The position numbers and the translations under genes were made by a program. This document shows positions 1-64,000 of a stretch of DNA of 64,000 nucleotides, piece after piece (positions within the stretch are counted from its first letter, which is position 1; each line of letters opens with the position of its first letter). The notes beneath the pieces were generated by a model that searched no databases, was not told where the DNA came from, and saw nothing but the letters and a program-made list of their open reading frames with translations. The stretch comes from Asterochloris sp. CNOR1 (taxonomy: Eukaryota; Chlorophyta; Trebouxiophyceae; Trebouxiales; Trebouxiaceae), in contig OZ017755.1 of NCBI GenBank assembly GCA_963969365.1, forward strand, positions 2,046,001 through 2,110,000. Direction: 5' to 3'.

Positions 1-3000
1 CTCAGGGAACCCCTGGCCCCAGGCGACTGTGTGCCACTGCAGTGCATGGATCTTCATTTGGCAAACAGCAATGGCACACAGATAGAACCCCAACTCCACC
101 TTTCCCCTGGACGTGGTGTCCTTGCAGCAAGTCAGCATCACGATTATTGAGCAACCAGTCAGCACACAGAGCGCAGGACACACCGGATGTGTGGCTGGTC
201 CATTTGTGTGCAGGACATGCAGAGTCAAGGCTTGGGCAACATCCCTGACGGGTGCTTGGGACCGCTGTGGCTGCCGTGCCGTACTTGAATCAAGACAAGC
301 GCTTGCTGCGCCTGCCAGTCAACAGCAACATGGGGAGTGGAGGCACATGCTGCCTGAACATGTCCGACCAGATGCTCACCTGGGGTGTCAAACTCTGGGA
401 TGACACGAATTCCTCGAGCCTTAGCATAAGCAATGACCTCCTGCACCTGCAGCCACAGGACCCAGGCGCTCAGCAGCGGCTGCTCTGCCCATGGAGGATG
501 AGAGGCACCGTCTGCTTGCCGCATCAGGCCAACGCAAGCTCCATCAGTGCAGCACCGCCCTAAGCACTGCCCTCCTGCATAGCAAGTCCTGCACTGACTT
601 GCTGTGCTTTGTGCACCTGCAGCAGCTCTAGCACTGACCTGCGTGGGCGTATACACCAGATCTGGGGAGAAGGCCCCGTACTCAGACAGGGCCGGCAGCT
701 CCTTGCTGACATAGGGGAAGCCCTGGTCATCCACTATATGCCAGTGCAGGACATTGAACTTGACTCCAGCCATGGCGTCCAGGTGCTTCTGCATGACCGA
801 TGGTAGAGAGCATTGGTCCAGCTGAGTGGGTGTTTGGGTGTCAACATTCTGGGCACGGGGCTTTGTGGGGCAAACCCACAGCATGCATCTCAGGGGAGAG
901 GAACAGCTGCAGCATGCAAAGTAAGCTTCAGCTATGCGGCCTCCACTATGCCCCAGGAATCACAGCAACAGTGGGCCAGTCTGGCCTGACATGGTACCTG
1001 AGACGGTGAGCCTCTGGCCACCAATGCTGTCACCTTGCAGCAGCTACTGCAAGCAGCAGCTGTTGCAATACAAGCACTAGGTGCCCAGGGCAGGAGCAGC
1101 CTCACCTTGCCCCATGGGCAGGGATGGGCACTGCACCCTGCCCACAGCTACCTCACTTCAATGATGTACAGAGGGGGGCAGTGGGGTCCAGTGTTCAGCA
1201 GCCACTGATGCAGCGTCTGGCCAAACACAAGCACACTCTGTGTTGTGCCTGCAGCGGCGCCTCAACGATCGGCAGAGGCAAGAGCTGGCAGCCTCATGCA
1301 GTGGCACATTCCAGGGTGCTTGCAGCGCAGCTTGATGAGGGCCAGGCCTTGGTCTGGCTAGCAGTGGTGCCTGGTCTCCAGCAGCCCCTGACGCTACGGC
1401 GTAGCATGGACAAACGCACCACACTGGCAATTGCAGCGTTTCCCCTGCAGCTGCCGCACCTTGATGATTGGCAGTGGCAAGTAATGGCGCCCTGTGTCCA
1501 GCAGCAGGCCCCTGTGCCGGAAGCGCGGCGCATCTGAGATGGCTGTTGCGTGGACCGTGAAAAGCGTCTGAGTTTTCCTTTTTTTGTGATGCTTCTTGTG
1601 GTGCTTTTTGTGATGTTTCTTGTGGTGCTTCCTGTGGCGATGCTTGGAAATAATTTGATCCTCGCCAGGGCCTGCACTGCACAGGCTACAAGGAGTGGAC
1701 GACTGCAGACGGACCAGTGCCTGAAGAGATGCAGCCTACATGCAAGAATGGCCCCTTCATGCTGAGCACATGCCTGGCCAGTGTGTGGGCAACTACTTTG
1801 GCGAGGCATTTGCAGTGCAGGGCACATGCATCCATCTCATGCAGCGCCCTATGCGGCAGGCAGCCCCCAACAGATGGGTTTCGAATGGCCATGGTTCTCC
1901 TTACAATGAAGCCCCAAGAGTGTCACCATGCAGCATGGCGCGCCCTGACGGTCCTCAGCAGGGTGCTAGATCACACAAGATGTACAGCGTGCAGACTGCA
2001 TCAGGTTTCACCTGCAGCTGGGTTGCCTACCCTCAGAATGTGCTTCTTCTGGGCTTGGCAGTGGTTCCCGCCACGACTGCAGCCACGAGAGCGCCCATCT
2101 CAACAGCACTGGCAGGTCGCTGCTGCAGCCGCCACAGTCAGCCAGCTGCGCTGCTGCAGGCTCCTCTGAGTCATCTTCTGCATCATCCTCGCGCACTACA
2201 GTGCGCTGCAGCAGCTGTGAGAAGGTTTCCAGACCCCGTAGCGCACCGAACACAGTGGTGGCCTGGACGACTGTGATGGGCGCCTCCACCTGAACAGCAC
2301 AGGCGCCACGCCTTGGTCCCTTTCCCATTTGCAGCTGTCTGGGCATTCTGAAGCCCTCCAAGCAGGAGGCACAGGCGGTGGCAGGGGCACTGGACCTGCT
2401 CAGGACTGGATTGCAGCTCCTCACCTCAAGCAGTCAGAGGCAGATCCAGAGTCAGAGGCAGCGCCACATGGTCAACAGCACAAGGGCAGAGATGGTGGCA
2501 GGCAGGCAGGGCGCACTGCAGCAGCGGCGCAGGCGAGGCGGTGAGCCAGCCTGACGGTTTGTCAGGCTGGCTCAGTCTGTGGGGGGCTGGGGGTGTGGGC
2601 ATTGAGGAGGGAGCTCGCTTTGGCGGCCGGGTGGCAAGAAGTAGCGCAGCTCGACCTCGCCATGCAACCTATGCAGGGGAGGCTCACCAGGAGGGTGTAG
2701 CTCTCATCTGTGTCCAAATTCAGGGACTGGTCATAGGATGCCACATAGACATGCACCTGCACAGCACTTCAGGTTGGACATGCGGCTGAGTTCTGCAGTC
2801 AGTGTAACAGCCCAACAAGCAGCTTAGCAAGGACATCAACAGTTTTGTCAGGCAAACTAATGGGCACCTCATGAATGCGGCCGTGCAAGCGCGCTGTGAA
2901 CTCTGCATTGTCTGAGGCGTCTTCCTGGCTGACATAGTCAGGCGTCTTGAACATGAGCTCTGTGTACCTGCAGAGGGAGGGTTCGAGTCATGGGCACCCC

Positions 3001-3596
3001 CTGTTGTGCATGCCGCCCCAGAGCCTGCCAAGCCGGAGCTCGCCAAGCAGGTGCCTCTGCAGGCTGCTGACAAGCCTGCAGCACCAGAGGCTGCACAGCC
3101 TGAGGCTACCATGGCAGAGGCAGCCAAGGCCAGGGCACCCGCCAAGAGAGGGACGGCCAAGACGGTCAGTGCAGAGCTGTGCTTTAGAGCTCTGCATGAG
3201 TTCAGTCGAGCTCCCTGCTCGCACACCAACAGCTGAGGTGGTGGGTGTCAAGTGAAGAGCTGGGTCAGGCTGCCTGATCTGTGTTGCGCTGTGGCAGCAC
3301 TGTTGGATCAGTAGTGCCCACCTTGGATATGCATCCCACAGGATGCCCGAGTCATAGCCCCTGGTCACAAAGCCAAACTTCTTGGGATTGATGTAGAGCT
3401 CCTTCTCGCCCACTGTCTGCAGAGGGAGTGCACTCTCTGCTCAAACCAAGGTTGCGTGAGGAAGGCCTGTGCAGTGCCCAATCACCTGATTCTGAGGCTT
3501 TGGCCACAGCAGGCCTGCAATGGTGGTCGAGCTGGAGCAGCTGAGGAGGGCCAAACACAGCAGCTTGCTGGGAGCATAGCCTGCCATCTCCCGCAT
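1..3596 (-). CDS. beta-N-acetylhexosaminidase, GH20 (partial, 3' end outside window)
   Basis: Removes terminal GlcNAc/GalNAc from glycans in the secretory pathway, vacuole or wall. Exons in order: 3596-3486, 3416-3322, 2967-2868, 2756-2688, 2289-2031, 1671-1460, 788-639, 446-380; all phases agree. Exon 1 gives a signal peptide from [18 protein letters not shown], followed directly by the family's LWPKPQN motif. The N-terminal domain shows [10 protein letters not shown] and [14 protein letters not shown]. The catalytic barrel starts with [20 protein letters not shown], then [14 protein letters not shown] and [11 protein letters not shown]. The catalytic Asp-Glu pair lies beyond position 1. A His/Lys-rich insert sits just before the barrel (about 1580-1655). 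A further exon piece, [11 protein letters not shown], reads at 1-36, but it is one base out of frame with the 380 donor; either a splice site is misjudged or there is an indel. Confidence 0.93.
1147..1388 (-). repeat. two decayed copies of the hexosaminidase exon 1671-1460 3' edge
   Basis: Seen directly on the minus strand. The exon end encoding [17 protein letters not shown] plus donor is followed in the next intron by GLLETRHHC with a stop (about 1388-1321) and by [15 protein letters not shown] (about 1206-1147). Both copies keep the relic of the donor and the G-rich bases after it. Confidence 0.75.
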
Positions 3597-3745
3597 GCTG
3601 TCGAAATGATCATTCACTGCACAGGATTCAATCCATTTGCTGTAACATGGGTTTTGAATTAGGTCGATCTGGACATATCTCGACTATTAGCGCATTACAG
3701 AGCAGTGTACATCCAGGTTATTCAATCCAACAGATCAGCGTCACT
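3597..3745. promoter_or_regulatory. shared divergent promoter region
   Basis: Only about 150 bases separate the ATG of the minus-strand hexosaminidase from the ATG of the plus-strand lumen protein, so the two 5' UTRs and promoters must lie here. No confident TATA box or named motif was seen. The call rests on gene layout. Confidence 0.5.
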
Positions 3746-6401
3746 ATGCAGACCACTCAGCTCAAGAGCTCTCTTGCCGGAAGTGCTGTGCGCCCGACAC
3801 AGCGTGTGGCAAGGCAGCAGCGTGTGAGTCGGACCGTGGCTGCGGTAAGTGCAGACCCATCTCATTTGCAGATCAGATCAGCACGCCAGCAAAATGCGGA
3901 CCCGGCTGCCGGCGGTCTCTGTCCCCTTAAGTGGCCTCTCATGTTGCCTGACAGCTCATGATGGGCTGGGTGCTGCAGCTGAGAACCAAGCAATACACTT
4001 GCTCGCTTGCTGCTTGGAAGGTGCCAGCTGGGAAATGTGGGCGGCTTCTGGCAAGCTGCAGCCCTTCGTAAAGTGCAGTCTGTGCGGCGTGCAGGTGCAG
4101 GATGGCCACCGCGGTCCTTCCAAGGGAGCCATGGGTCTATTTGGAGCGCTGGCTGCAGTGCAGATCGCACTTCTGCCTGTTTCAGGTGGGCCTCAGCTTG
4201 CAGCCTGGGCTGAGGCGGCTGACTACCAAGCAGTGCTGCTGATTGAAATTCCTGAGCACTAACCCAGACCAGTTTGCGCCAGGTTTCCCCAGGTGCTAAG
4301 CATCGTAGCCCTTCCACTGCACCAAAGCTGCTGGCAGGCTTCCTGTTCAGCCATGTCTGTGTCCAGGGCTTGCATTACCATGTGCAGCATCCAGCCTGGT
4401 GGAAGGAGCTTTCAAAATCACCACTAAAGTGACGCACCAAGTGCTGCACTGCACACCGCAGGCCCTGTTTTGGAAAGCGCACTGCCACCTCCAGACTCTG
4501 TTCTGGCCACCCCCATCATGCAGCAGGTCCTGGGCTTGCAGGCCCTGCCGCTGCTTGAAGCTCAAGACAGTCACCAGCCTGAACAGCACCAAACAAGGTT
4601 GACTTCTGACGCTGCTGCAGGCCAGGACAGTTCTCCCACTCATCAGCACTGCTTGCAGGCCCTGCTCTGGCCGGCCCCCTGGACAGCCTGCTGCCCAAGA
4701 GCGCCACTAGCCAGTCTGCCCGTGACGACCTGAACAGGAAGACCAGCGGCCTGCCCAGCCTCAAAGAGACCGGGAAGGACCTTGTGGGCGGGGGTGACCC
4801 CATCGGCGCTGGCTCCGCCAAGGTGTGGGCCTTATGCTGGTGTCACAGCTCAGCTATGCTGCATGCTGTAAGAGTCCTGCACATTGTTGATGGGGGGTTG
4901 ACCCCATCAATAGCATCTTTGCTCAGGTGACCATACAATGCAACGCCAGACTTACTAGCTGCCTGTCGAGTGTGGGGCATGCTCAGCCTGCCAAGGCGAG
5001 CACCAGCGGTGTTTGCAATTCACATGTGAATTCAAGAGGAGCTGGGAGGGGTAGCGTCATATCCACCCACTCTGCCAATGGGAGCCCCCACAGTATCTGA
5101 CTGTGGCACAGACATGCATGGCATCCCTATCACTGTGCTGATGGGCTGGAGCAACCCCGTCTGCCGGCAGAGATGCTTGACAGCCAAAGGGCGGCCCCAC
5201 TGGTGTTGAGTCTGCCAATGTGGACCCTCAACCATTATTCCAGTGGGACTAGGCGCGATCAGCATCTCCAGTGCTGAGCTGTTGGTGTGGGGTGCAGTAC
5301 AGTCTGAGGAGCCGACAGCGATGGATGTTGAGACTTGATCTGCTATGCTGCAGGACATCGGCAAGAAAATCGATCAGAACACACCCAATGTGGACCTGAA
5401 GTCCAACCCCAAGGACCTGGCACAGAAGGCGGCGGACAAAGCTTCCAACGCAGTGTCGGACCTGTCTGCAGTCTTTGACCTGGCTGAAAGTCCCACCAAC
5501 ATTGGGGGTAACATCAGGGTGAGCTGGCTGGTGGGGCCTTGAGTGCCCAGCGTGCCCATTTGTGGGCTTGAGCAGCATGCTGGCCCACCTGAGACACAAG
5601 TCTGAGTGTACTGGTGCAATCCATGCAACTGGCTTCCACTGCAGTCTCCATTTGACAAAAAACCCAAAGTGCAGAGAAGGGCAAAAGCAGCTGGCACCGA
5701 ATGCTTCCTGCCGAGAGGCAAGTGTGCATGCGTGCAGCTTGCATCTTTCTGAAAGTGGCCAGGGGCCCAAAACCCAGACCTCTCATAAACATGCAGCAAC
5801 TCAGAAAGCAGTCAGCATTGTGGTTTTGAGCCCAAAGGCCAATTGTTGCAGTGGAGTCTGTGAGGCAGTTGCTGCGCCTGCTGCAGTCTGATGAGAGGCA
5901 GAGCCCCAACAAGGAGACCCCTGAGTTGTCAGGCGTGGCCAATGCCCGGGCGCCCAACAACGACATCGGCCCCATGCCCACGGGCAACGTAAGCAAAGCT
6001 GCTGTCTGCATGGGCTTGTGTCTTTCTTCTCATCAGCTGTCTTAGAGTGGTCACCAGCGTGACACACTTTGGGGACAAGTCTTGTGCTCATCTATGTTTT
6101 GGAATGGAACGGGCAATCATGCCTTGCCTGCCTGTTCGCTAGATGTGGTTGTCCGCTTGCCTGATGACCCAGGAGTGCTGTTCAGGACTCTGGCTCGGGC
6201 AGCTCAGCCATCATCTGCAGCTGTCCTCCACCAGCACAACATCTCATCTTTCCTGTATTGCAGCTGCCTTCCCCCGACGCCCGCCAGAACCTGGCTCCCC
6301 CCAGCGACAAGGTGTCCAGTCAGAGCCCAGGCGCTGATGTAGGTGTCAGCGATGTCGGTGACATCAAGTCTGGCCTGGACAAGCTCAACCCCTTCAACTG
6401 A
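3746..6401 (+). CDS. thylakoid-lumen-targeted protein, function unknown
   Basis: Six exons with agreeing phases: 3746-3844, 4095-4185, 4659-4822, 5354-5518, 5887-5988, 6264-6401; about 252 aa. Residues 1-33 are rich in Ser/Arg/Ala and look like a stromal transit peptide. Then comes a hydrophobic stretch, GLFGALAAVQIALLPVSG, ending in an Ala-Leu-Ala signal-peptidase motif: the classic bipartite route to the thylakoid lumen. The mature part is hydrophilic and probably disordered, with one helical segment around DLAQKAADKASNAVSDL, and the protein ends LDKLNPFN. No family was recognised. It is transcribed divergently from the hexosaminidase, which implies no shared function. Targeting is inferred from composition; the gene structure is well supported. 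Confidence 0.82.
4449..4580 (+). repeat. two decayed copies of the 5' edge of exon 4659-4822
   Basis: The exon begins GCAG|GCCCTGCTCTGG. In the intron before it, GCAG|GCCCTGTTTTGG (near 4458) and GCAG|GCCCTGCCGCTG (near 4538) each repeat the splice acceptor, followed by recognisable but diverged exon sequence, including the later CCTGAACAG. Confidence 0.6.
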
Positions 6402-20393: not shown

Positions 20394-20469
20394 TGTCTCG
20401 TTGGTGTAGTAGGTTATCACATCTGTCTCACACACAGAAGGTCGCCAGTTCGAACCTGGCATGAGACAA
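20394..20469 (+). tRNA. tRNA-Val(CAC)
   Basis: The acceptor stem TGTCTCG pairs with TGAGACA, followed by discriminator A. The D arm contains TGGTGTAGT-GGTTATCA, the anticodon stem TCTGT/ACAGA encloses the loop CTCACAC with anticodon CAC, and the T arm has GTTCGAA. No intron. An A-box and B-box are present, as expected for RNA polymerase III. Confidence 0.93.
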
Positions 20470-20755: not shown

Positions 20756-20849
20756 GACTGATTGGCCGAGTGGTCTAAGGCGCCAGATTAAGGAAACTCC
20801 TTTAATACTCTGGTCTGAAAGGGCGTGAGTTCGAATCTCACATCAGTCA
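20756..20849 (+). tRNA. tRNA-Leu(AAG) with a short intron
   Basis: The acceptor stem GACTGAT pairs with ATCAGTC, with discriminator A. The D arm begins TGGCCGAGTGGTCTAAGGCG, as in class II leucine tRNAs. The anticodon stem CCAGA/TCTGG encloses TTAAGG, giving anticodon AAG, and is split by an intron of about 14 bases (near 20794-20807) just 3' of the anticodon. A long variable arm and a GTTCGAATC T loop follow. Confidence 0.9.
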
Positions 20850-21385: not shown

Positions 21386-21501
21386 AAAAGGACAATGGGC
21401 AGCCAAGAACCTTTTAATGTAAGCAGTGCTCCTCTGTCAGTCGAAAAGGACAATGGGCAGCCAACAACCTTGTAATGTAAGCAGTGCTCCTCTGTCAGTC
21501 G
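21386..21501 (+). repeat. 58-bp tandem repeat, two copies
   Basis: Two adjacent units beginning AAAAGGACAATGGGCAGCCA and ending CTCCTCTGTCAGTCG differ at only two positions (G/C near 21408 and T/G near 21414). The near-identity implies a recent duplication. No gene can be assigned here. Confidence 0.9.
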
Positions 21502-22911
21502 AAAGCGCTGCGTTGCACATGCTTCTGCAGGACAGGGGACACAACGTCAGCCTGGCAGCAGTGTATGGTACTGGCAGCAGTGGGAGTTGCTCTCCACCTG
21601 CTTGCGATTATGGCGAAATTGGGGCACTGGCGGGGGCACAACAGGTGCCGCTGCTGCAGGCTGCTCCTGCTTGGCCATGGAGACCTTGCTGGCTGGGTGC
21701 CCACTGTTGAAGTATGGTGCATCTGCCCTGCTGCTTGGCCTGCAGACATTTGACACTTGAGTCAGCTGGGAACACAGCCATACTGCATTTGACTGCTCGT
21801 GGGGTCGCACAAGTACACACCAGCTGTCCAGGTCAGGCAGCAGGAGCACAGCAGCCCAGGTGAGTGCAATGCTCCTTGCAGGCTCCCTTGCCAGCTGGCC
21901 AAGCAATGCACTCCAGGTCAGCCATAGCAAGGGGTTCCTTGTTTGATGGCCTAGACGGCCTGTGAAAGCAGCCCACAGCAGCTGCAGCCGCCGCGATGCG
22001 CCTGGAGGCATCCGCATGACTAGCTGCCCTGCCCATGAAGCTGACCTACATGCAACAGCCTGGGCAGCACCAAGGCCCTCACCAGCTGGCCGGGTTGTGG
22101 TTCAGTTCCGCTGCAACAGCAGCTGCAGCCGCCGCTGCTGCGCCTGCAGCCGCCCGCCTCACAGGCCGCCCGGAAGATATACGCTGCAGGAAAGCTGTTG
22201 CGCACACCCCCTCCTGCTCAGAGCCGTCCTCGCTGCTACCTGCCGGCTGCTGTGCCCCTGGGGTCAGGAACCGCTCGCGGAAGCGGTCGGCAAAGCAGCC
22301 ACCGTCGTAGTGCGGACGTCGGGATGGGCCTGCTGGCTGGCGCCTGCAGCACACAGCACGGCATGGTGATCCATGCTGGGAGGATGTGGCTTCAGGATAG
22401 CGAAGCTGATGCACTCTGTCACGCTGCGGGCATGGGAGGGGCCCGCTGAGGCGCGTCGCTGCATAAGAAGAGAGTCTGATGCAGCAAAGGACAGCAGTTG
22501 CATTGGTTGCATGGCTGCCAGGCTGCAGGACAGGGGGGAGCATGGCTCAGCAGAGAAGGGCAGATGCTGTCCAGGTGCAGTCGTCATATGGAACTTGCTG
22601 GCTGGCGCCAGCACCCAGGACAATGCTTAAGCAACAAACAGGCGCCAGGAGTTGCAAGTTGTGATCCTGCAGCATGAAGTCCAGAAGACACCTTTCAGGC
22701 AGCAGGGCCCAAAGCTGCGGTCTCCTGCCAAGGGAGCGCATGGTGCTGCCTCACGTGCGGAGCTTGACCACCCCCAGGCTCCTCAGGCTTCCACGGCACC
22801 ATCACGGCAGGTCGAGCATGCTGCAGGACTGCAGCAAGCTTCTGCTGAGGCTAGGCACCATGGCCGCCTGAAAGCAGCCGCACAAACAGCTGCACCGCAG
22901 CGCACCCTCAC
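21502..22911. other. unassigned, possibly 3' exons of the minus-strand gene at 22912-23667
   Basis: Several long Ala/Pro/Gln-rich open frames occur on both strands. A minus-strand frame near 22190-22320 with HYDGGCFADRFRERFL is the most gene-like. No splice chain with consistent phase could be made to connect it, so nothing is called. Confidence 0.35.
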
Positions 22912-27523: not shown

Positions 27524-27838
27524 TCAGTCCTCCAGCAGCTGGTCTGCTGGGCCACCCTCTGGTCGGTGAACAGCCCAATACACAAAGATGAACATCTGCA
27601 GCATGAGGCAGGCCAATCTCGGACTGTGCGCATCTGCAGCATGAGGCAGGCCAATCTCGGACTGTGCGCATCTGCAGCAAGCAATGCAGGCATGCAGACC
27701 CACCAGGAGGAGTACGCCAGCAAAGCCAGCCAGGACTATTTTGGCTTTCTGCTGGATTCTCTGATTCTCAGCCTTCCTCTTTCTCCGCTCAGCATTGGTC
27801 TCTCCCTTCTTGCCCACTGCTGCTGCATTGCGAGGCAT
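27524..27838 (-). CDS. 68-aa single-pass membrane protein, unknown
   Basis: Exons 27838-27704 and 27595-27524 join in phase 0. The N-terminal half is basic (MPRNAAAVGKKGETNAERRK and onward), followed by one membrane segment, IVLAGFAGVLLL joined to MFIFVYWAV, exactly split by the intron. The C-terminus is acidic (QLLED). A positively charged N-terminus with a C-terminal span fits a tail-anchored or small ER protein. It faces the type I protein gene tail to tail, with about 100 bases between stops. The intron is filled by the 38-bp repeats listed next. Confidence 0.7.
   Translation of the reverse strand: MPRNAAAVGKKGETNAERRKRKAENQRIQQKAKIVLAGFAGVLLLVGLHACIACCRCAQSEIGLPHAADAHSPRLACLMLQMFIFVYWAVHRPEGGPADQLLED
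27593..27690 (-). repeat. 38-bp tandem repeat, about 2.4 copies, spanning a splice acceptor
   Basis: Units at 27593-27630 and 27631-27668 are identical, with a partial third to about 27680. Read on the minus strand each unit carries GCTGCAG|ATG, the same acceptor and first codon used by exon 27595-27524, so the intron holds perfect decoy copies of its own 3' splice site. Confidence 0.9.
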
Positions 27839-40029: not shown

Positions 40030-40560
40030 GGGGGTTCCTCCTGTTCCAGCGGCGTCGCAGACGCTGCACTGGCCGCAGACGGCACCGACCAGGCTGGCCG
40101 CTTGCGCCTGCAGGCATGGAACTGGACTGGAGCCAGGCTGATTTGAGAGCATCATGGCAGGCTGAGAGTACTGCCTGCATAAGGGCCCCTGCAGCCAGAA
40201 GGCATTGACCAGGCCGGCCGCTTGCGCCTGCAGGCATGGCACTGGACTGGACTCAGGCTGTCATGACTTGAGAGCAGCTTGGCAGGCTGAGAGTGCAGTC
40301 TGCATCAAGGGCCCTGCAGCATGCCAGGCTGGCCGCTTGCTCCTGCAGGTGCAGCACTGGACTGGACCCAGGGTGGTTTGATCCAGGCTGCTGCTGAGAC
40401 CAGCACGGCAGATGAGCATGTAACATGCATGGTGTCAAGTGCAGCATCCCAGGCTGGCCACTTGCGCCTGCAGGCAGGGCACATGGCTGGAGCCCGGGCT
40501 GATCGGGTCCAGGCTGCTGCTAGGTGCAGCACAGCAGCTGACAGTGCGACATGCCTCACC
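40030..40560 (-). repeat. four diverged copies of a roughly 125-bp unit with a splice acceptor
   Basis: Each unit carries on the minus strand CCTGCAG followed by GCGCAAGCGGCCAGCCTGG or a close variant, near 40115, 40235, 40345 and 40470. The lowest-coordinate copy opens a candidate exon (SLVGAVCGQCSVCDAAG). The other three lie upstream of it and carry frame breaks or substitutions. Confidence 0.7.
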
Positions 40561-43051: not shown

Positions 43052-43094
43052 CCCAGCAGTGCTTCTTGTTAAGCGTTTTGTTACGCGGCAGGCA

Positions 43095-44960: not shown

Positions 44961-47900
44961 ATGCAGGGCCAACAGGAGGAGCCACAACTCCCCAGAGCTG
45001 GCGGAGGGGGCAATGCAGAGTTGAACACCTCACTAGCGTCTCGCAGAGCGGACCAGGGCTCTGCAGTGGACCAAGCCGGCATCGGTGCGTGCCACCAAGA
45101 GTGCCTGTTGCACATGTGCTGGGCTGCGAGTGTGTTTGGAGGGCCAAACAGAGAGGTGGCTGGTAGTGCTTTCCTGCAAGCACCAGGATGCAGCTCACAC
45201 GGGATGTGGTGGTGTCAGAGGCAACATGTTGCAAGGCTGCTTGGGAGATGCATTTTAGAAGACATGCAATCTACAGCACAAAGGCTGGGCCTGGTGCACC
45301 TGCCCTGCCATCTATGACAGAAGCTGCCACTGAGAGCAACATCATGACCCTGCTGGCCACGAGTCCAGCCCTCAACTGCCAACATCGGCCTGGGCACTGA
45401 TTGGGATGCTGCACTGTCCTGCAGATGAGTACATCCAAGCTCAGCACAGTGAGCGGCCCCCCATTGGTGCTCAAAGCCGGTCAGTCACCTGTCCACCCCT
45501 CGCTTGCTCTGTCAGCATGCGGTTCAGGGCAGGCGCTCAGCCTGCTGGTGCTGCTTGGCGACTTCAGGCCTCTTGTGCCAGCACATGCCCCACTGCAGCA
45601 GCCTCAGGCAGAGTTGCCTGTCAAGCAGCAGTCTGGAAACTGGCTCTATCCTTGCCTGCTACCACCTGCTCCATAGCATCACGGCAATGGTTGACCTTGC
45701 ACCTTGGCCATCTGACCCTGCTTGGTTGCTTGGTCCTTGAAGTCAGATCATCTCCTTTGGTCCTGATCTTGCCAGCGCAACAAGCCTCTGCAAGCCTGGC
45801 CCTGCCAGCGCCTGTCAAGGCAAGCCCATGTTGTGCAGGCTGGTTTCCTGCCAGCGCCTACGAAACAAAGCACAGTCACATGTGTGCAGGCTGTCCCCTG
45901 CGTCAGCTCAAGCCAGCACCAGTGGCCCGTACACGCCCCGCCAGCAGGAAAACGGCAAGGACGCTGCGTGGGAGTCCAAGCCCCTGCTGCTCATCACAAC
46001 AGTGGACATTGGGGAGGGCAAGGCAGACAAGATTGTCCTGCGTGAGGGCGACAGGGCAGAGGTCAGCGCCGACTGGGTTTAAGCAGAGACTATTGGGCTC
46101 CCAGAGCAGCTAGCTGGGCCAGCAGAGCTGTGACTGCTACCACCTGCACTCAATGGTGTGCAGCCTGTGGGCAGCGAAAGACCTGCACGAGCATGGCCAT
46201 GGGCGACAACCTGGCCTGCATTGGACAGCTTCTGAGGGTCCCTGGGTCCCTTAGAGAGGACCCCCCTCCCCGCTCGCCCGCCCAATGCAGCGCGTGGTTG
46301 TGGAAGCTACAGAGTCTGAAGGCCATACAGGCTCTGAATAAGCTGTTCTCAGCTCCGTCTCTGCAGGATGCGGCGGCCGCTTTCTGTGCAAAGAATGGGC
46401 TGGCGAGCGCCATTGTGGGGCCCCTCACCCGCCACATTGAGGACAACCTGCTGAAGGCGCAGCAGGAGGCTGCTGCAGAGGTGAGCATGCGCAGCTTGGC
46501 AGAGAGTGCAGCAGGAGGCTGCTGCACAGCCAAGCCTGCACTGCAATTGCAGAGGGCGCAACAAGAGGATGCTGAGAGGTGAGCCTGCACACTCTGCAAT
46601 CGCTGCAGGAGGCTGTCGCAGAGTCAAGCCTGCAATGCCTCTGCAGAAGGTGCAGCAGGAGACTGCTGCAGAGGTGAGCCTGTGGTGCAGCAGGTGACTG
46701 CTGCAGAGCCACGCCTACCCTGCACTTGTGGAGGGCAACGCAGCAGATCAAGGATCTGCAGGAGGCATGGCTCTGCACTGCTCCAGCATTCACTCTGTCC
46801 TGCACAGTCTTTGGCCTGTCAGTGCCGCCCAGCTGATGCAGTCGTGTCCATGCTGCTTCTGGCAGCAAGCCGCTGAGAGCTGCTTCTGCCCCATGTGCTG
46901 CCTGCGTCACGCACAATGCTGTGACGAGCTGTCGTGCTGAGGACTGGCTTGCAGCGCTGTCCCTGCCCATGTGCTGTGCACAGTCGGAGGCGCATGCACG
47001 CGTTCATGTGCCTTCCTCAACCAGGATGCAGACCTGCAGACAGCAGAGAGCAGCGGGAAAGTTGTGTCACGCACCTACAATGCACGGCGCTGTGGCACCT
47101 GCAGGAGCAGAAGGAGTGTGGTGGGTGCACACTGACTTTGGTATTGGTCTGTGCTGGAACTCCATGCACTTGCTGTGCAGGCGGCAGAGGAGCAGCAGGA
47201 ACGCAGCTCGCTGCACAGGGGTTCCGGCTATCTGGGAAGTAGCGAGGCGGAGCCACGAGGGTATGGCGCAAGGCAGGGGCATCAGGCAGCCAAGCCTGCG
47301 CGGCAGCCTGCAGGTGGGAAGCTGCCAAGTGCTGATCTGTACAGTAACAGCTAGCTCCCCTGTTGGTCCCTCTTGGCGGTGAGCTGCACCCATCACATCT
47401 GTTGTGAATATTTGTGACTTTTCCAGACGGTAGGACCAGCAGTCTAGCAGCTTTGCATCTGCAAACCTCAGCCTGTGACCCTCCAGCAGACACGCTGCCA
47501 TCGGTCAACATCAAGATTTTCCAACTGTACTGGTCTGTGCAGGGGGAGCTGCCAGGGCAGCATTGGCAGAGTCTGCCCCCAAGTCTGGACGATCAGTGTT
47601 TGACCGTCTGTACGGCCACGCAAGGGAGCTGCAGGCAAAGCAGACTGACAAGCGCAAAGCAAGGTGAACTGAGTGTGCTTGTGCAGCCTCAATGGCTGCT
47701 CTGCAGGCCAGCTGCAGGATGTCTCTCTGGTGATCTGGCAAGTACAGTCACAGCAGCTCAATGCAGCAGGTGGTCCAAAAGGAGCTGTTGTCATTGCTGC
47801 ATCCCAGCTGACTGCAGGTCTCGGGCTGGCCTTGGTCTTCTGGGTTGTGGCAGTGAGGGAGGCAAATGCGCAGATGGCTGCTCTCTGCTGCAGGCAGCAG

Positions 47901-50900
47901 CCTTCTCAAGCAGCACCCGCGCTGCAGGCTGGGGCTGCAACATTGCTCAACATGGTAGGGCCTGAGTGGTGTGATCTTGAGACAGCACTGCCTCAGCACC
48001 TTTGCTACCTGCAGGAGACACATCCTGGAAGCCATGAGGCACGTCAGCGCTGGCAGCCTGCCCACCAGCCTGCCCCATCTGCCCGGCGCCGCTTGCAGGG
48101 GACAGTGCACCATGGACCAGCTCTCTCAGGCATCTGCAGTAGCTGCCCCCGTGCTTTGCCTGCAGGGACCGTAACATCGATCTGACGGCGCAGATCAGCG
48201 CCCACAGCATCACCTGGGTCAGCGAGCAGCTGATGAAGGGGCGCACCTCGGGCAACTACGGGAACTATGGGGAGCGCCTGTATGTGGAGGGCCTCATGGA
48301 GCTAGAGAAGCGCAGGGCAGCGGTGAGGGCCTGGCATCGATTGCGGCATGTGTTGTGGGCCTGCGGCTGTCAATGTTGCAGAGACAGTGAGCGCCCATGC
48401 AGCCAGTACTGCTGGGCAGTTGGGAGGCTGAAAAGGAAGTGCGGGGCAGGCTTGAGAGATTGGCTTCCTGTGTGGGCTGTGGCATGCTATGTGGGCATGC
48501 ACCTGATGTACAGGGCAGCCTGTGCAGGTCGAGAAGCTTGTTGTCCGGAGCAAGTGCAGGGCAGCGGGAGGTTTGACTTGAGGGAGTCGAATGCCGATGG
48601 GCATGCATGTGTGGCTAAGGGGAAGGGAAAATTCTCGGAGGGCGCTTTGGAGCTTGAGAGGCGCTGGGCAGCGGTGGGAGCTGATGTACACTTGCTTACC
48701 ACAGCGAGTGTCTCTCATGGAAGGGAGGCATGACTAGACGCGGCTCAAGGCAAGAGATATGCGTGAATATGTTGCATAGTGCCAGCTGGAGACTGCTTCA
48801 GCTTTGTGTGTCTGCGGTGGCATGCAGTGCAGACAAGCATTTGTAGGAACTGCAGGTAAGGTCTGTCTGTGGGGGGAATGGTGTGGCTGCAGTCAATTAC
48901 TAGCTCTACTTGACAAGGGCAGGTTGTGCCCCCCTGACCTGCCTACAGTCTGAACTGCGCAAGGCTCAGACAGCAGACTAGCACTCAGCACTGAGCGCCA
49001 CCCACTCTGTCTGCTACAGGCCCCCCCCCCCCCCCCCCCCCCCCCCATGCCTGCATCACAGCTGCACAAGGCAAAGGCATTGTCGCATTGCCCTCTGAAC
49101 CCCTTTGTCAGTCTGTCTAGGTCCCACCATCACCCCTTCACCCTCTGCAGTCTGAGCTGCACAAGGCTGAGCAGATAGCCAGCGAGCTGATGGGCGCCAC
49201 CTGGCGCCCTGAGATTAGTGGGATGGCTAAGTCCCTGAAGAGGCCAGACGCAGACCTGCCGCCTTACATGCGCCTCAGCGCCCAGAGGACGAGCAAGACC
49301 CAGGTGAGCTGCGGGTGGAGGGCTCCAGGTCATGTCAACCATCAAACCAAGCCAAGCTGCAGGCTGGGCCAGTCAAGCAGTCCATGAGGGGGCCTGATGC
49401 AGACCTGCCACCCTACATAGACCTCATAACAGTCTGGACCAGCAAGACCCATATGATTCACAGTTTATTTGGCAGAGTTGAGCTTTCCAGGCAGCAATAC
49501 CATCTGCACAGCTTCAGCAAGGAGGCTGCTGATATACTAAGCATCTTCTATGGTTCACACAGTCAATGTGTCCCTGCAGGAGCGGCTGGAGGCCATCAAG
49601 CGGGAGCAGGAGGAGGAGGCTGAGCGTGAGTGCACCTTCCAGCCGGCCATCAATGGGCGCAGCGCGCGCCTGATGGCTGAGCGCAGCGAGGTCCTCAAGG
49701 TGCAAATACCCCTTATGGTATGCTTGATGAGCAGTGGCTGTGCATTGCTGCTCCCTACCAACGCTCACCTGATGCTGGGCTCTGTGAGCCCTGATGACAT
49801 CCTTTACCCTGCACCTGCTGTTGTATGAGCACCACATCATGGCCATGAGCAGTTCATCCAGGATGCAGCACACCTGCCACTGCATGCTTCCTGTCTCTGA
49901 GACGAGCTCTCTGAACTGGTAGCAGGAACTCTACCCAAGTCAACCGGTGAAGCACCACATCATGGGCTCAGAGCCCCTGCACCATGACGCAGCATGCACG
50001 CCTGTCCAACCTTTCCTCTCCTGATGGCAGAGTCTGCACTGGACCTGTCCTGTCTCCGCTGCAGGAGCACCACATCACGGCCCACGAGCAGCTGTTCCAG
50101 GATGCGACACGGCGGCGCATGAGAGCAGAGGAGTATGCGCAGTGGTTTCCTGAGGACGTGACCTTCCACCCTCGTTTGACAGAGAGCAGCAAAACCTGGG
50201 ACAGCGAGAAGCTGCGGGCCGAGCTGCAGGTGGCAGTGGCAGACAGGTGGGTGACTGGGTTTCAGAAGGCGGGGACTACATCGTTCAAATGCAGACTGCA
50301 ACAGGGAAGACCTGCAGGTGAGCTGCTGGCATCATGCGACAGGTGAGGCAGGAGTGTGGTTGGTCGCATGTTTGAGGGGCCACAGACTGAGCATGTCATG
50401 CTTCATTGAGACCAGCAACAGCTGGGGTGAATAGGCTGTGGGTGGAGCTGCAGGTGGCAGTGGCAAACAAGTGAGTGCAGCAGTTTCCTTGTACAAGATA
50501 ATGCCAGGGAAGAGGAGGTGCATGCAGAGTGAGCTAGTATGAAGCACTGAGATGGCCACCCGTAGCCTCAGCCCACCAGCTCACCCGTTGCAGGCTGGCT
50601 GCTCAGCTGTGGCCTGTATGCCCTCTCAGCTGTCCTGCCCCACTGCTGCAGGCTGTTTGAGAGTGCTTGTAGGGTGCAGGAGCAATGGGAGGCTCGTCAT
50701 GTTAACACAGGAAGGCCCTGCGTGTGTCCTGACAAGTCCCTTCAGCGTCCCACTCAGGTTCCATGCTGCAGCAGGCCACACCATGCCAGTCTGGATCCTG
50801 CCAGATCTCACTGCTGTGAGCTTGCCGCCTCATCGAATGCCTCTGCAGTGATGCTCAGGCACAAGTCAGCAAACAGTCTGTGTGTTGGCTCTGCAGGCTG

Positions 50901-53900
50901 TATGAGAATGCTCGGAAGGTGCAGGAGCACCTGGAGGCTGAGCGCAGAAACGCAGAGGAGCACCCAGTGGACCCAGCCACTGGGCAGCCCTTCTTCCAGC
51001 CCCAGGTCGGGCGGGGGCCGAAGCACCAGCGCAACCAGCAAAACATGCCCATCGGGGACTACCTGCACAACTTCAGGTGAGCTTGTTATCTCTTGGTGGT
51101 TTCAAGGGCCCCAAGCACCACCGCAGCCAGCAGAGCTTGCCTATCGGGATCCAGCTGCACAATTGCAATTGAGTCCATCATGCACTCTTGGTCGGAATGA
51201 GTTTTGATCTCATGAGGACTGCCTGCATCATTCTGGACGACATGACCAAGGTCTAATGCAGTTGCTCTGACAGACACGTCTGGGGCAGCATTGCCACGGA
51301 CACCACAATTTTGTTCACTGGCGACTTGTGCGAGCCGAGAGCAGCCATAACCCCATTGGCCTTTTGTGGTGCAGGGCTGAATACAATGACAAGAATGAGC
51401 AGATGAAGACCCTGAACGCCCAGCAGTTTCAGCAGGCAGCAACCACAGCTTTCACCCTGCATCGCTCCCAGGTGGGGCCATTGCCGCTTGCCTGCATCTT
51501 GTCTGCTGTGCCGCATCTGAGGCAGCTGGCATGAACCTTTAGATTGTGGTTCCCCACCTCACAGATGCTACATCACATGCATCACAACATCTGTGCACTG
51601 ACAGCTCGTTTAAGTCAGGACTCTACTGTGACAGGGCAGCAGAGCTCGCTGTGCCCGCCCAAGCAAAGTGCTCATGCCTTGGACCTCAGGCAGAGCCTGT
51701 GGTCCTTGCTTTGAGGACTGTCACTGCGGTGTAAAAGGCACGGCTTGCTGCCATGCAGAACCTCATGGCCAGGTTGAAATCCAAGCGCTTCAGGCAGATC
51801 TTCGAGTATCTGGACCAGGATCAGGATGGGCTGCTGGACCTGGCAGAGCTGCTGTCAGGTGGGCTGGCCGCTCGCCTGAAGGCTGGTCCGCATGACCGCC
51901 TGCCATGTGTCAACACACCAGCTGCTGCGGCAGTGGCTATTCTTGGTGGACGCAACAAAGCTTCGGGGCCCCAGCGCATTGGCGGCCTGCTCCAATGGGC
52001 AGACTGCCCTGTTCATATGCGATGAATGGGTGCTGACTGCACCATGCGCTTTTCATGAGCACGGCCACACTGTTTGGCAGTCAAGACCAGGTGACCTGGC
52101 ATGGTGCTGTGCAGAGGTGTGCAGGGCCTGGGCAGCTGCTCCACACTCTTCGGCGTGTCGAGATCAGCTCCCCATCAGATGGCGGCTGCTGCTGGCATAT
52201 ACAGCAGTCAGCAGCCACCCAGGTCGCACCATGTTGCAAAGGATGGGCAGGCATACACTGAGCTGAGCAGGAGATGGGCAGCTGCTGGTGTTGAAAGCGC
52301 CCAGGTTGACACCATCCTCGTCTTCCCAGAACTTGATGAGCCAGTGACACCACTGCTCATGCTGTGCAGAGGATGGGCAGCTGCTGATGGAGACCCTGGA
52401 CCCAGAGGTGCGCTCCGATGTGGAGCTAGCTGCTCAGATCTGGGCGAGGCGCCGCAGAGGGCAGGACCAGAGGTGGGTGGCCTCATGCTTGAGCTCAATG
52501 TTGTCTGCAACCTGTGGCATTCATCAGGAGGTGGCAGCACACTTGGCCGAGGCGCCTCAGGCGGCAGGTTGGCCATGTTTGCAGGCCTGCGCCTAGAGGG
52601 GTGATCCAGGCCCGACCTGACCCCAAGGTTGCTGCCTTGTTTCTGCAGGGCAGTGGCCACAGTGGCCCAGCTGCAGGGCGAGGAGGAGCACTCAGCTGAG
52701 GGCACTGCAGCATCGGAGGTGGCAGAGGCCTCTGTGGCTGCTGGACCAGCACCAACAGTGGAGAGCAGCCAGCTGCTGACTGCAGTTGCATCGGCGCCCA
52801 CGGTGAGCGTGTCAGCTGGCTGCATGCAGGGGATGCCTGCATGAGCCAACAGTGCACTGAACCTTCTGGAGTGCGCTGCCATGGTACCACAGAGCTGCAT
52901 CAGAGGCCACAGCTAAGCCTGTCAGTGGTCCTGGACCACATAAGGCCAGCTTGGGCCAATAGTGGGTAGCTGAACCTGCTGCAGTTCGCCCCACAGGTGC
53001 AATGGCTCCCGCTCACATTGGGTTGACACCTGGCTTCCCAAGATTGTCTCTAGTCCTAGTTGGCTTTCAGATGGCCCTTGAGCGCTGCATGGGGCGAGCC
53101 CTCCCCAGCTCAGAATGCTGTGCAATGCATCATGCTGATAGTGTGCTCACTTCACCCTCAGTGTACCTGCCTCAGGGTGTGCTGGTCAGTACCTGCAGGT
53201 GTCAATTGACCACTTCAAGGTGCTGAAGGAGGAGCTCATTCTCTCTTTGAGGTGCACACTGAATCAACGCTCGCCTGCTGGTCAACACCTGCAGGTGACC
53301 ATCGACCAGTTCAAGGTGCTGATGGAGGAGGCCCTTGCCCGCACGCGCGGCATCCCCCGCAGCTACCTGCTGCCTTCCCCTGCACAGAGGCTGGAGGATG
53401 CGCAGCTGACCTTTAAGCCCCGCATCACGCAACGCTCTAAGGTGTGGTCCCCAAGGCAGTCTGCCCTTAGCCTGATTTAAATTTGCCGCTTGCTTTCAGT
53501 CAAGCACTTTTGAATAGCATGGCACACCTACTTTCAAGCCCTGTGTCACACAGCACTTTGACGTGGGGCAGACGCCATTGGGCGTGTGGGGTGATAGCCG
53601 CCCAACGGCTTTGCTTGGTGGGACAGCTTAGGAACCCAACGCATGCTTGCGGCACCAACATGGCTGCCTGTGCAAGTATCGTGGATTGCAACAGCAACGC
53701 TGCAATCACACATTGTGCAACCTTGCCGACAGGGTCCCTACGCAGACAGTCTGGAGTGGCCAGACGTCGCGACCATGTCTGCAGAGCGTTGTCCTTATAG
53801 AACCCGGAACGGTCGCTTTGTGTGCAGATGATTGCCCTTCGCAACCGCCCTGAGAAGGCCAGCGTATACGATCTGCTGCACCAGGAGGCCAGCCAGATCA

Positions 53901-57941: not shown

Positions 57942-60900
57942 ATGAGCTGTCGGCAGCATGCTAGATCCCGATCCAGAGGCCTGCATTGCCATACGACCAT
58001 AGCCTTCCCGCGCAGGATCTGCTCTGCCACATTTTGGCATGTAGCCCTCTTGCTGGCCTATTTGCCTGCAGGGCTGAGCTCCAGGGATGTGCTCTCAGCC
58101 AATCAGGCAGACCTCGCACAGCTCCCACTGTCCAGCCATACCTGCAGCATCGGCCAGGTGGTGCAGAACAACTACTGCACATTCAGCAACCTGGTACTTT
58201 GGCAGAACCAGCTCTTTTATGTCGCCTCTGGTAAATGCACAACACATGCATGCTTGGACATCTGGACGCTGTTCATGTCACAAAGCCAGCGGCTACATGC
58301 AGACCCTGACAGTGTCAAACTGCCAGACCTGCTGCTGAACTGGACCCCTGGAGAGCTGGTGAGATATACTGCAGCACTTTGGCAGGACGCTTTGATGCCA
58401 ACCCAGTGCCAACTGCAGACAGCTGATCGCCTTGCAGGTGCTTGGCATCAGTGTGGTGAGTCCAGATGCTCTGGCACCCTCCTGGGCGACTGCAGGCAGG
58501 CTCTACATGTCAGATGTGCTCCTGTGGCTCTGGGTTCTGGGGTGAGTCTTCCGCAGCTCAGTGCCTCAGAGCAGGCTTATACACAGCTGCTGCAGCAAGA
58601 GAGAAGCCTGCAAGCTCCCCACCTCGTCAAACAGCAGCCTGTTTGCATATCTTTGCACAAGTTCAATGTGTGTGCACCACGACTCCGCCCTCAAAGGCCG
58701 GCATGACAGGAACAAGTACAAGGTGCCTTAGCTAATAACAACCTGCCACCTTGCTGTCTTGTCACACACAGCCTATCTGCATGCCAAGAAGCAGCCTGCT
58801 GTTGCAGTCTGAGACATCACCAGAAACTAGCTATAGGACTGACAGACATTGACACCTTCTGTCCTGTCGTGACCTTCAGGAACAACTTTGGCCACACACT
58901 CGGCGAGCAGGTCCCAACGATGCACCTGGTGCTGTGCGAACGGCTTGGTAGGTGTTCACATAGCATGGAGGTAAGCCCGACATGCAATTTTCCTTGACTG
59001 CCTCTAGAGGGCCACAGTTACGGCAGGAGGGGCAGCAGCAGGCAAAAGACCAGCCAAAATGTGCCAGCCGCCTTTCTATATGACCGCTCATGGTTCTGGG
59101 GATTGCGGAGACAGGGCAGGCCAAGGAGCAGCTTTCGTCGCAGAGCAGAGCTGCCACTGTACTGAGGACTGCATGCAGGACATGCACGTTACATGAACCT
59201 TCATGTCTTGCATAACCCAGGAGCAGGCCTGCCGTCCAAGCTTCTGCTGTCTGCAGAGCGGGGTTCCACATAAGTCATGACCGCCTGCAGGACCTGCAGG
59301 CGACCTGGATCCTGTTTGTCAATGGCAACCAGCCTAGCACTGGGCTGGTTGAGTGGCGACCAGGTGAGGAATTCACACGCTGTTGAGGAGGAGGCTGTGG
59401 AGTGACCCCCTGCTGCAGCCGCTGATGGCAACGCACGCAGGACCTGAGGCAAAATTGGCTTGCCTGCTGCAGCTGATGTGGGGAACACACTGTGCAGTGG
59501 CTCGCAGGCCGCGTGAATCATCCTGATGCAGCTGCAGACGCCAGCCTCTACAGTGCCTAGCCCCAAGCTTGACCTTCCTGCTGCAGGTCCTGTGGGGCAG
59601 CCTCTGCAGTGGCTCATATGCAGTGTTGAGTATCCTGCTGCAAATGACAGCAATGCAGTTTCTCACAAACACACAGTGGCTTTCCTGCTGCAGGCGCTGT
59701 TGGGGAGGCTGTCCAGTGCCTGACGGCCAACCCTGTGAGGTACACCAACAATGCAACGCTGGCTGGCTCCATGGTGGTGAGGTCTGCTGACCAGCCTACC
59801 ATGACTGTCGTGTCTGGAGTGGGTTCCTCCCACCGGCCCCGCCATGAGAACAGCCTGCACTGCAGTCCGTCTTGTGCAGGCTGTGTATGCAGCAAGATTA
59901 AGCTCATGCATTCGTGCCTGGCGCAGACGGGAGCAGCACACTGCACAGCTGCGCCTCCTGTGCAGGTGCTTGGAAGGAGCACAGCAGGGATTGGGCCAAC
60001 GTCCAGAGCATACATCAAGTCCTGGGTGTGAGTCAGCAGTGTCAGCATGCCGCCATTGCGATATGTGCGCAGACGGCCACTTGCCTTTGTTTGAGTGCTG
60101 GCCTGCCTCCACTACAGCACAAACACCTGAAGTAGCAGTGCTCTTGACTGGATGTGCACACATATTTAGCATGCTCTGTGTACCCTCTGTTGTGGTCAGC
60201 CATGCATGACAATGAGAAAGGCTCAGCCTATCACCACTGACCTCTGCTGACTTGCAACCCTAAAGACTGCCCTCAACTGGGGGCGCGTTGCAGACAGCGC
60301 TGCCTGTTGCTTTGGCAACCATGTAGAGGTAAGCATGGCTGGGCATCATATCTGCTGCAGGGGCCTCATCTGGGCTTTGGCCTCACCAGGCAGAAGCAGG
60401 CATTCCTTGACAAGGCTGACTTCAGGGCTGACCACCTCATGTCTGCTGCAGGCGGCCGCGCATGGGACCCCCAGCAGCCCTGATGGATCTCTGGTACCGC
60501 CGCCTGAGCCAGTGCGTGGGGCTGGACCCTGACAGGACAGCTCCCGTGCAGGAGCCTCACCTGGTGGCCATCAACCGCCAGGCCAGCAGTGGGCGGCACT
60601 TTGCCAACCTTGACCCAGTCATGGAGGGCGTGAGGAGGCGCTACGGGGTACATGTCATGGAACACCTGTGAGCACTGGTGGGCAAGTGAGAGGACTGTCT
60701 GGTGCCAATTGGGCGTCTGTTGTGCAGCATCCATCAACACCATCAGGGCCAATGAGAGGGGTAAATGGCATCACCTGTAAGTGCCCAGTGCGCCTACCAG
60801 GGACACCTGCTGTAAGCGCGGCTGTCATGCAACGCCTGTGAGCATTGATTGAGCCATTTGACTCCCGCTTGGTACCTACTGCCTGAAAGCGCACTGTGCC

Positions 60901-62805: not shown

Positions 62806-63725
62806 CTCCGAGGGCATACACTGGGAATTTGCAATCTGCCAGCTCTTCCTTGAGCTGTTGATGTTGGAATGCAGCCTCATAACCCTCCTTTGAGACTGCA
62901 CCAGCAGAGGGTGAGTCAGTAGGCACTGTAAGCTTCTGGCTGTGCACAGGCTGTGCAGCAGCTTGGTCCTGGCCAGGAGGCTGAACACGCTGGTGGCTTG
63001 GTAGACAGGAGATATGCAGCGGCTGTGCTGTTGCAGCACAAGCAAATCCCTGGCAGCGCACAAGCAGGCGATCCCTACTCGTAGGAAACTGCACTATGAC
63101 GTTGCAAGCCAGCCCTTTTCGCCTTTATGAGTATGCTTTTTATTGGCATGTACAACACACTGGGGGCCTGGCAGGCACCAGCAGGCTAAGCCCAGCTTAT
63201 GCTGAGCAGCTCACCGGAGTCAAAGACTGGAGAAATGAAGGCATAGTCCAAGGCGCCATAATCCTGACTGAGCTGATCCAGCGCGTGGAGAGATGTTGAC
63301 AACGTCAGACCTGCACATCCCTGAGTTGCCCCCGACGACATGATCTTAGATACAGAGTGGTAAGTAATGCAGGAGTCTTACCTGGACGCGGTGCCAGTGG
63401 CTCTTTGGGCCTGCCATGCTCAGTAAAGTGCAGGCCCTGCAAGTTCAGGGCAAGATTTGCCACCAAACTCCAAACTGCATAGAATCCAGATCAGCAAGAT
63501 TGGGGCGAGCACCTTGATATCGAACTCCTCTGCAAGCTCATGGCAGGTGTGCAGCACCAGATTGCGCCTCGCCGCTTCTGGAAGGGCCTTCAGAAGCTCC
63601 CTCATGTCCACTGTGGCATACCCAGGCTTGCGGAGGTGGACAGTCATCTGCCGATCAAGCAGGCTATTCAGAAGACTCGGGGGAGTCTTCGGAGCTGTGA
63701 TCACCACCAGCCCAAATGCTGGCAT
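62806..63725 (-). CDS. TenI/thiamine-phosphate-synthase-like protein (3' end unresolved)
   Basis: The family folds as a TIM barrel; thiamine-phosphate synthase joins the two thiamine precursors, but many TenI-like proteins have other or unknown roles. Three exons join in phase: 63725-63513, 63320-63215, 62895-62806. Motifs in order: AFGLVVITAPKTPP, MTVHLRKPGYATVDMRELLK, ARRNLVLHTCHELAEEFDIK, TSLHALDQLSQDYGALDYAF, ISPVFDSVSKEGYEAAF, KFPVYALGG. This matches the HLRKP-type branch seen mostly in bacteria, not the fused plant thiamine enzyme. The C-terminal strand and helix should follow; a hydrophobic minus-strand frame at about 62270-62090 (GVDVSVACTVLFKDALPAAG) is the best candidate, but the phase does not join directly. 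Confidence 0.8.
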
Positions 63726-64000
63726 CGCTCAGAGCGCCTTTAGTATTGAGGAAGATTGCTGTGAAGTCGGCACAGCTGCCCTGCACACAATCATAGAATG
63801 CCAGCCATCAGATACTGATGTCAGTGGCGCAAAAGATGATGACATGGGGGTGTGTTGCAGCTGTGCAACCCTGTGATTCCTTCTACCTGACACTTGGCCC
63901 ATTGACCCTGTATACACTGCCCCGGATTGGATCCGCCTGGATACAAGCAGGCCAGCAAAGCTGGACGTTTGTGTGGCGTCCCTGACAGGACAGCAGCAGC
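63726..64000. other. right edge; possible start of another gene
   Basis: This lies upstream of the TenI-like gene. A plus-strand frame open to the window end (PVYTAPDWIRLDTSRPAKLD) looks protein-like but has no visible ATG or acceptor, so no gene is called. Confidence 0.3.

Follow-up and report, generated by a model that had tools for sequence, protein, structure and literature searches.

Decayed local copies of exon sequence in introns of the green alga Asterochloris sp. CNOR1

Short local duplications that are identical or nearly so, the "doublets" of Thomas et al. 2004, are reportedly abundant in mammals and are said to tend towards the same strand, and tandem exon duplication with alternative splicing is likewise said to place copies of exon sequence in a neighbouring intron. 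In vertebrates, the available excerpts of Pace et al. 2009 (PMC2671141) describe a continuous, repair-mediated duplication by capture of proximal DNA, which is attributed to synthesis-dependent strand annealing (SDSA). According to the same excerpts, that survey concerned copies of at least 50 bp inside transposable elements (TEs) and excluded pairs within 50 bp; 753 of its 1,136 donors lie within 3 kb, with an apparent peak at ~1.2 kb that its authors regard as a possible artefact, the density in human is 0.62 per Mb of TE, and one exon copy in the opposite orientation is reported. At intron borders, the accessible part of PMC4974935 presents a potato case in which local duplication across an exon-intron boundary duplicates splice signals, while excerpts of Rogers and Bendich 2025 (PMC11782384) report direct repeats of 4-30 bp at both intron ends, which are read as marks of insertion. 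Here, we examine a 64-kb stretch of contig OZ017755.1 from Asterochloris sp. CNOR1 (hereafter the window), in which introns contain decayed copies, or echoes, of the edges of neighbouring exons. A sequence-only reading of the window held that no standard feature type exists for such copies, a view that is not entirely accurate, given the vertebrate short local duplications, exons and splice sites included, in the excerpted text of PMC2671141. For Asterochloris and other Trebouxiophyceae, there is no account of exon copies in introns among the literature matches listed, which leave subscription papers mostly uncovered and the absence unproven; the accessible parts of PMC6652019 and PMC3446292 do not mention them.

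Local copying in the window and across the genome

Local copying in excess of chance is confirmed, both in the window and beyond it. Ungapped matches 20-1000 bp apart (+1/-1 scoring, score of at least 18) were compared with an expectation taken from pairs 4-9 kb apart. In the window, which lies within a 56.38-Mb genome of 21 contigs, the search returns 62 direct repeats and 1 inverted repeat against 2.2 expected from scaled far pairs, and in 24 arbitrary 10-kb loci elsewhere, it returns 186 direct and 8 inverted against 5.3. Across both sets, copy and source are mostly separated by 50-300 bp, and 17 of the 24 loci have at least one exact 14-mer pair within 800 bp. Among these loci, L006 has the highest number of local repeats (11) and L015 the second highest (10); at 4454-4846, L015 carries local copies that are nearly identical, with matches of 0.95 across 111 bp at a distance of 226 bp and of 0.93 across 57 bp at 213 bp.

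The same excess appears when each of 418 modelled introns is compared with the exons on its two sides (minimum score 17). Copies are found in 51 introns, compared with 0 for the reverse complement, 3 for dinucleotide-shuffled exons and 1 for exons of other genes, and the window alone gives 14 of 80 introns (controls 0, 1 and 0, respectively). The claim that exon-edge matches exceed controls is thereby upheld, and the phenomenon is real, although it is detectable in a minority of introns. Within the window, copies lie in 11 plus-strand and 3 minus-strand introns, in keeping with the reported presence on both strands, whereas the figure of at least nine genes was too firm: 7 gene models qualify with well-scored exons and 11 with any local copy. 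When local matches are clustered at a score of at least 17, they form 275 events (70 of them in the window). Relative to random placement, exon-intron (112 versus 74.8) and exon-exon events (57 versus 46.0) are the more frequent, intron-intron (55 versus 69.9), intergenic (31 versus 61.0) and intron-intergenic events (2 versus 5.9) are the less frequent, and exon-intergenic events are near expectation (18 versus 17.4). The identity of exon-intron pairs is continuous, with a 10th-90th percentile range of 0.68-0.88.

All gene models are ab initio and come from our own small hidden Markov model (HMM) gene finder, which was trained on the window and the fetched loci (L001-L026, comprising the 24 loci and two added later). 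The first fit (304 kb, 522 exons, 442 introns) underlies the 418-intron search, the clustered event classes, the retention of splice bases, and the geometry of flush copies with the intron lengths. The second fit, with the two loci added (324 kb, 570 exons, 489 introns), underlies the junction counts, the tests of tandem or spaced origin, the codon tests and the simulations, and it left the models unchanged in only 10 of 25 earlier loci. HMM training gives GTGAG[CT] as the donor consensus and CTGCAG as the acceptor consensus, and the GC content of the window is 52-63% in 2-kb steps.

A plus-strand gene at 48.2-51.9 kb illustrates the echoes at both exon edges. For the most part, its exons are matched by P0001, an orthologue from Trebouxia with 57% identity across the full length of a hand-trimmed query, Trebouxia being the source of the nearest named homologue of a window protein, and the four exons described here are real by this comparison. 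The end of the exon at 48166-48322 (48286-48330) recurs with its donor at 48637-48681, 351 bp away. The exon at 49151-49303 has a copy of its acceptor and start 202 bp upstream (48943-48969) and a copy of its end (49230-49307) 149 bp downstream (49379-49456), in which the donor GT is lost; a run of 26 C adjoins an echo in the intron at 49021-49046. The start of the exon at 50065-50246 is copied twice, 238 bp upstream at 49822-49844 and 115 bp upstream at 49951-49990, forming a serial set of three at ~115-123-bp steps (49.8-50.1 kb), while its end is copied with the donor 224 bp downstream (50435-50477). Finally, the exon at 50897-51076 is flanked by a copy of its acceptor and start 245 bp upstream (50646-50694) and of its end (51014-51081) 92 bp downstream (51106-51173). 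The last three exons had been singled out in the sequence-only reading as echoed on both sides, and copies are indeed found on both sides of each. By the Trebouxia protein, three calls in this gene look wrong: 48560-48673, 51155-51190 and the tail of 49580-49717. The first two of these miscalled exons hold echoes, namely the copy at 48637-48681 and part of that at 51106-51173. Thus, the gene finder sometimes takes echoes for exons, which moves pairs from the exon-intron to the exon-exon class.

Relatives, compared through translated sequence only, indicate both age and turnover. P0004-P0006 are run-through translations of orthologous exons and introns, with listed alignments over exons that are 94-98% identical. 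P0006 retains the copy at 48943-49010, matching 17 of 22 residues in the interval 48955-49020, and has 15 additional residues at its copy, while P0004 retains the homologous intron stretch with the 48637-48681 copy (21 of 38 residues over 48583-48699). In both, the positions lost, as judged by eye, differ from those lost in the window, which supports copying before the split. A unit difference is seen at 37390-37692 on the minus strand, where two head-to-tail units of ~141 bp (37390-37546 and 37531-37692, identity 0.89) each hold a copy of the acceptor edge of the predicted exon at 37202-37318; this edge (37284-37335) is repeated at 37377, 37474 and 37624. In P0011, from a 924-kb contig of a related genome, the alignment is colinear with a 132-bp jump here, one unit being missing, and P0010 is identical to the window at 177 of 177 residues once exactly 143 bp are omitted, although its contig has 1,065 bp and the repeat could have collapsed there. 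The absence of a unit from both indicates that the ~141-bp unit was gained or lost recently, and from these alignments a gain in the window would be the simplest account. With continuous identities, two older copies common to relatives and one unit differing between relatives, the picture of repeated duplication with continuous decay is supported.

Origin of the copies

The echoes are probably debris of ongoing, largely neutral, genome-wide local copying of short DNA segments. Segments giving matches of ~25-100 bp would be copied ~50-300 bp away on the same strand, probably by error-prone repair or by template switching during replication, either to the sister or within one strand (SDSA or slippage). 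Copies landing in exons would be removed by selection, and those in introns would survive and then decay; this route and the neutrality of the copying are inferred. Since exons change slowly, exon-intron pairs would stay visible longer than others, with slowly evolving exons and splice sites keeping the source readable, and it is for this reason that the debris would look like exon echoes. Some events are head-to-tail and repeat, giving serial units, and intron growth would be a by-product. That introns lengthen through copies, as the sequence-only reading proposed, is plausible but unproven: introns with copies have a median length of 407, compared with 237 for those without, which is compatible with lengthening, but longer introns also give more room for copies.

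The best-surviving rival, which we consider unlikely, derives nearly all echoes from simple tandem duplications, head-to-tail and extending over the exon-intron junction, that have since decayed. Its geometry is favourable in that an exon-containing unit with an intronic second copy must include the junction. Among pairs of at least 0.90 identity, 7 of 19 are head-to-tail; all seven belong to the 11 pairs in which 25 or more bases align. The sole unit difference seen between relatives, that at 37390-37692 in translated sequence, is a tandem unit. All seven fresh tandem pairs, however, are intron-intron or non-coding, and none is exon-intron. A tandem origin also requires the sequence between the copies to be homologous to what precedes or follows them. 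When spacers are tested for this homology, the 80 exon-intron pairs have a mean z of 0.24 with 12% in the top 5% of the null, and the values are similarly low for 23 intron-intron (0.20), 24 exon-exon (0.43) and 11 exon-intergenic pairs (0.28); in the 14 intergenic pairs, unit homology is present (mean z 3.25). The test would detect a tandem origin: in power simulations, tandem copies give z of 7.6-8.3 (2.8-3.4 for pairs below 0.8 identity) and spaced copies 0.77-1.39, and when real gene structure is used, whether large-indel turnover is included or not, tandem copies give 2.1-6.2 with 36-81% in the top 5%, compared with 0.57-0.97 and 19-23% for a spaced origin. Because almost no residual unit homology is left in their spacers, the older exon-intron copies look spaced, and most older genic copies look like short segments placed nearby without their spacer. 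The earlier description of the copies as tandem therefore suits the fresh head-to-tail pairs and apparently not most older exon-intron ones. A new intron made by tandem duplication needs a copy that abuts the opposite splice site; this holds for none of 65 copies, so that intron creation by this route is not seen.

Several observations weigh against a single process of neutral local copying. The fresh long pairs are mostly tandem with no exon-intron pair among them, whereas the older exon-intron pairs look spaced, and more than one mechanism may be needed to account for the two groups. Part of the contrast could stem from class differences, or from turnover outside the simulated range. The share of exon-intron (EI) events among EI and intron-intron (II) events, EI/(EI+II), is 0.67 (105 EI and 52 II events; 0.58-0.73 by bootstrap over loci), which is above every simulation run (0.35-0.58). 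With perfectly conserved exons and uniform spaced copying, the simulated share is at most 0.50, and sequence-space simulations give 0.49-0.58, of which the tandem ones (0.54-0.58) come closest. The excess persists with stricter exons (0.52 versus an upper bound of 0.35), for which two further observed figures also exceed the simulated ones (0.24 versus 0.11 and 0.06 versus 0.03). Intergenic pairs make up 0.106 of events other than exon-exon, about one third of the ~0.31 in a homogeneous simulation. Finally, the copies contain 9 new in-frame stops where permutation gives 22.4 +- 4.4 (for the other two frames, 41 versus 52.8), and synonymous changes account for 172 of 479 single-change codons (0.36) against 0.275 +- 0.018. 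For the event classes, visibility and geometry account for much, and a moderate excess of exon-derived copies is left over, which could be explained by errors in the models, by breakage linked to transcription or by a degree of copy retention.

Junction targeting, in which breaks or template switches would fall preferentially at exon edges or splice sites during transcription, is a more doubtful proposition than tandem duplication. Across 958 junctions, 24 donor copies and 31 acceptor copies span the junction with scores of 8 or more on both sides. Of the donor copies, 18 lie downstream, and of the acceptor copies, 26 lie upstream; this is the direction given in the sequence-only reading, and it means that the copies lie mostly in introns. 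The junction is crossed by 73 of 118 exon-intron pairs, where random placement gives 44%, and thus, edges are copied, but not edges only. Crossing events make up 0.34 (0.26-0.41) of EI+II, compared with at most 0.20 when simulated with perfectly conserved exons, and 0.27 versus 0.10 with stricter exons. Among EI pairs in the sequence-space simulations, however, crossing ranges from 0.39-0.43 (spaced) to 0.44-0.61 (tandem), around the observed 54 of 105 (0.51), so that junction crossing exceeds the spaced simulations only and is reproduced by the tandem ones. The ab initio origin of the gene models also tells against targeting. With the EI share above the simulations and crossing within their range, the idea that junctions are specially copied gains little. 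An exon-only edge test, in which 30 of 65 copies reach the junction with 5-7 expected, was set aside as it overstates edge enrichment, the search cutting crossing matches at the junction.

The terminal bases of the copies bear on targeting as well. TGCAG lies near the ends of both copies at 0.076 of 394 ends versus 0.029 +- 0.009, a figure inflated by shared homology, and near the end of either copy at 0.327 versus 0.287 +- 0.025. CTGCAG, which is the consensus of the 3' splice site, has a density of 3.80 per kb in the window and L001-L026, compared with 0.31 by base composition (exons 3.23, introns 4.58, intergenic DNA 3.11 per kb). Microhomology of splice motifs as the driver is disfavoured, CTGCAG being very frequent everywhere and TGCAG only weakly tied to copy ends. 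In its boldest form, with exon-intron junctions as hot spots of local duplication, introns growing largely from their own exon edges and reserve splice sites being continuously supplied to every gene, the idea seems to us improbable.

A far less likely explanation treats the echoes as exons that are used alternatively or in mutual exclusion, or as coding copies maintained by selection in some other way. The deficit of in-frame stops and the excess of synonymous changes favour it, but TA depletion, exon-side changes and some miscalled introns may each explain part of these deviations. In the introns of the window and L001-L026, CpG (0.31) and TA (0.43) are strongly depleted, and TG (1.78) and CA (1.76) are in excess, a pattern that cytosine methylation would produce. 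Mismatch rates at codon positions 1, 2 and 3 are nearly flat in exon-intron pairs (0.212, 0.235 and 0.266; exon-exon pairs give 0.296, 0.244 and 0.368), and the copies are partial, several having no splice site. Echo peptides are absent from the Trebouxia protein, which, as read by eye for this one gene, crosses the exon joints of the gene at 48.2-51.9 kb. In donor copies (n = 20), positions +1 and +2 are kept at 0.60 and 0.70, compared with 0.78 at exon positions -1 to -5, and in acceptor copies (n = 10), the first splice base is kept at 0.80, compared with 0.68 in exon neighbours, and the second at 0.50; donor bases and the second acceptor base are therefore not better kept. From their sequences, the copies appear to be under little coding constraint and look like debris rather than extra exons. 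The sequence-only reading had also wondered whether splice sites move through such duplication; with the echo peptides missing and the retention of donor bases unremarkable, such movement is not shown.

Introners or TEs carrying splice sites would explain why the copies recur and bear acceptor or donor sequence, but each copy resembles the exon beside it, and exons from other genes give no comparable matches. Four copy-bearing stretches have no second locus in the 56.4-Mb genome by a word-based search, which could miss diverged copies; as these stretches match only themselves, we regard an introner or transposon origin as extremely unlikely. Templating by spliced RNA or complementary DNA, suggested by homology that ends near the junction in many displayed alignments and by 5 hits among 402 spliced junctions (0-3 among 436 in five control rounds), is just as implausible. 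In 3 of the 5 hits, a complete exon end matches itself and the other side adds a chance score of 8-9; the other two are 8+8 and 11+11. Intron bases of the donor or acceptor are present in several copies, there is no clear signal of copies that join two exons, and this templating was rejected.

Serial arrays and neighbouring features

Further copy-bearing places occur in the window on both strands. On the plus strand, serial copies of an exon end (46480) with its donor extend over 46448-46747 in steps of 35-94 bp; a homologue search with the minus-strand open reading frame over this array matched only the window's own protein. Three copies of the acceptor and start of the predicted exon at 59694 occupy 59450-59721 (+) in steps of 107-114 bp. 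At 40076-40503 (+), there are four units at 115-125 bp, overlapping a doubtful predicted exon, the first two being strictly head-to-tail (40076-40195 and 40196-40320, identity 0.87). On the minus strand, three units at ~113-126 bp (33854-34187) span the donor edge of the exon at 34125-34291. Outside predicted genes, a 58-bp unit is present in 2.1 copies with 96% matches at 21386-21504. The 38-bp units cited earlier as identical exon-edge copies are indeed identical (2.3 copies, 27593-27679), but they lie outside predicted coding sequence, past the end of a predicted gene, and are not evidently an exon edge.

Two tRNA genes are found on the plus strand at 20395-20468 and 20756-20849. Within 1-3596, a family-20 glycosyl hydrolase is matched in its two parts (PF00728 and PF14845) by separate minus-strand models, which are probably one gene split by the gene finder.

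Comparison with described systems

The exon-intron pairs offer a readable record of the birth of intron sequence, in which the exon keeps the original while the copy decays, such that birth, age and loss of copies are measurable within one genome. A few strain genomes of this alga, probably a lichen partner, would make it possible to measure directly how fast local duplication proceeds, how much it adds to intron length and whether it has any effect on splice-site choice.

When compared to mammalian doublets, the pairs here are mostly decayed, and many are anchored in exons. Unlike tandem exon duplication with alternative splicing, the copies are partial and show no clear coding constraint. 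They share with intron gain by tandem duplication, as far as the accessible part of PMC4974935 describes it, the local duplication across a boundary that copies splice signals, but they lie inside existing introns and do not abut the opposite splice site. The excerpted account in PMC11782384 likewise concerns direct repeats at the borders of introns, whereas the copies here are longer and reproduce one exon edge within the intron.

The most extensive likeness is to the vertebrate duplications in the available excerpts of PMC2671141, which are likewise short copies of nearby DNA on the same chromosome, exons and splice sites included. Separations mostly below 300 bp agree with the proximity expected of repair-mediated local duplication, and the 80 exon-intron pairs agree with its spaced copies, while the fresh long pairs are mostly tandem. 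The Asterochloris copies differ in occurring in an alga, in lying mostly 50-300 bp apart and almost only on the same strand, and in being seen through exon-intron pairs. They also appear to be denser, although at a looser threshold, so that the densities are not strictly comparable. On the strength of these excerpts, vertebrate repair-mediated proximal duplication, together with the doublets cited there, is the closest published class.

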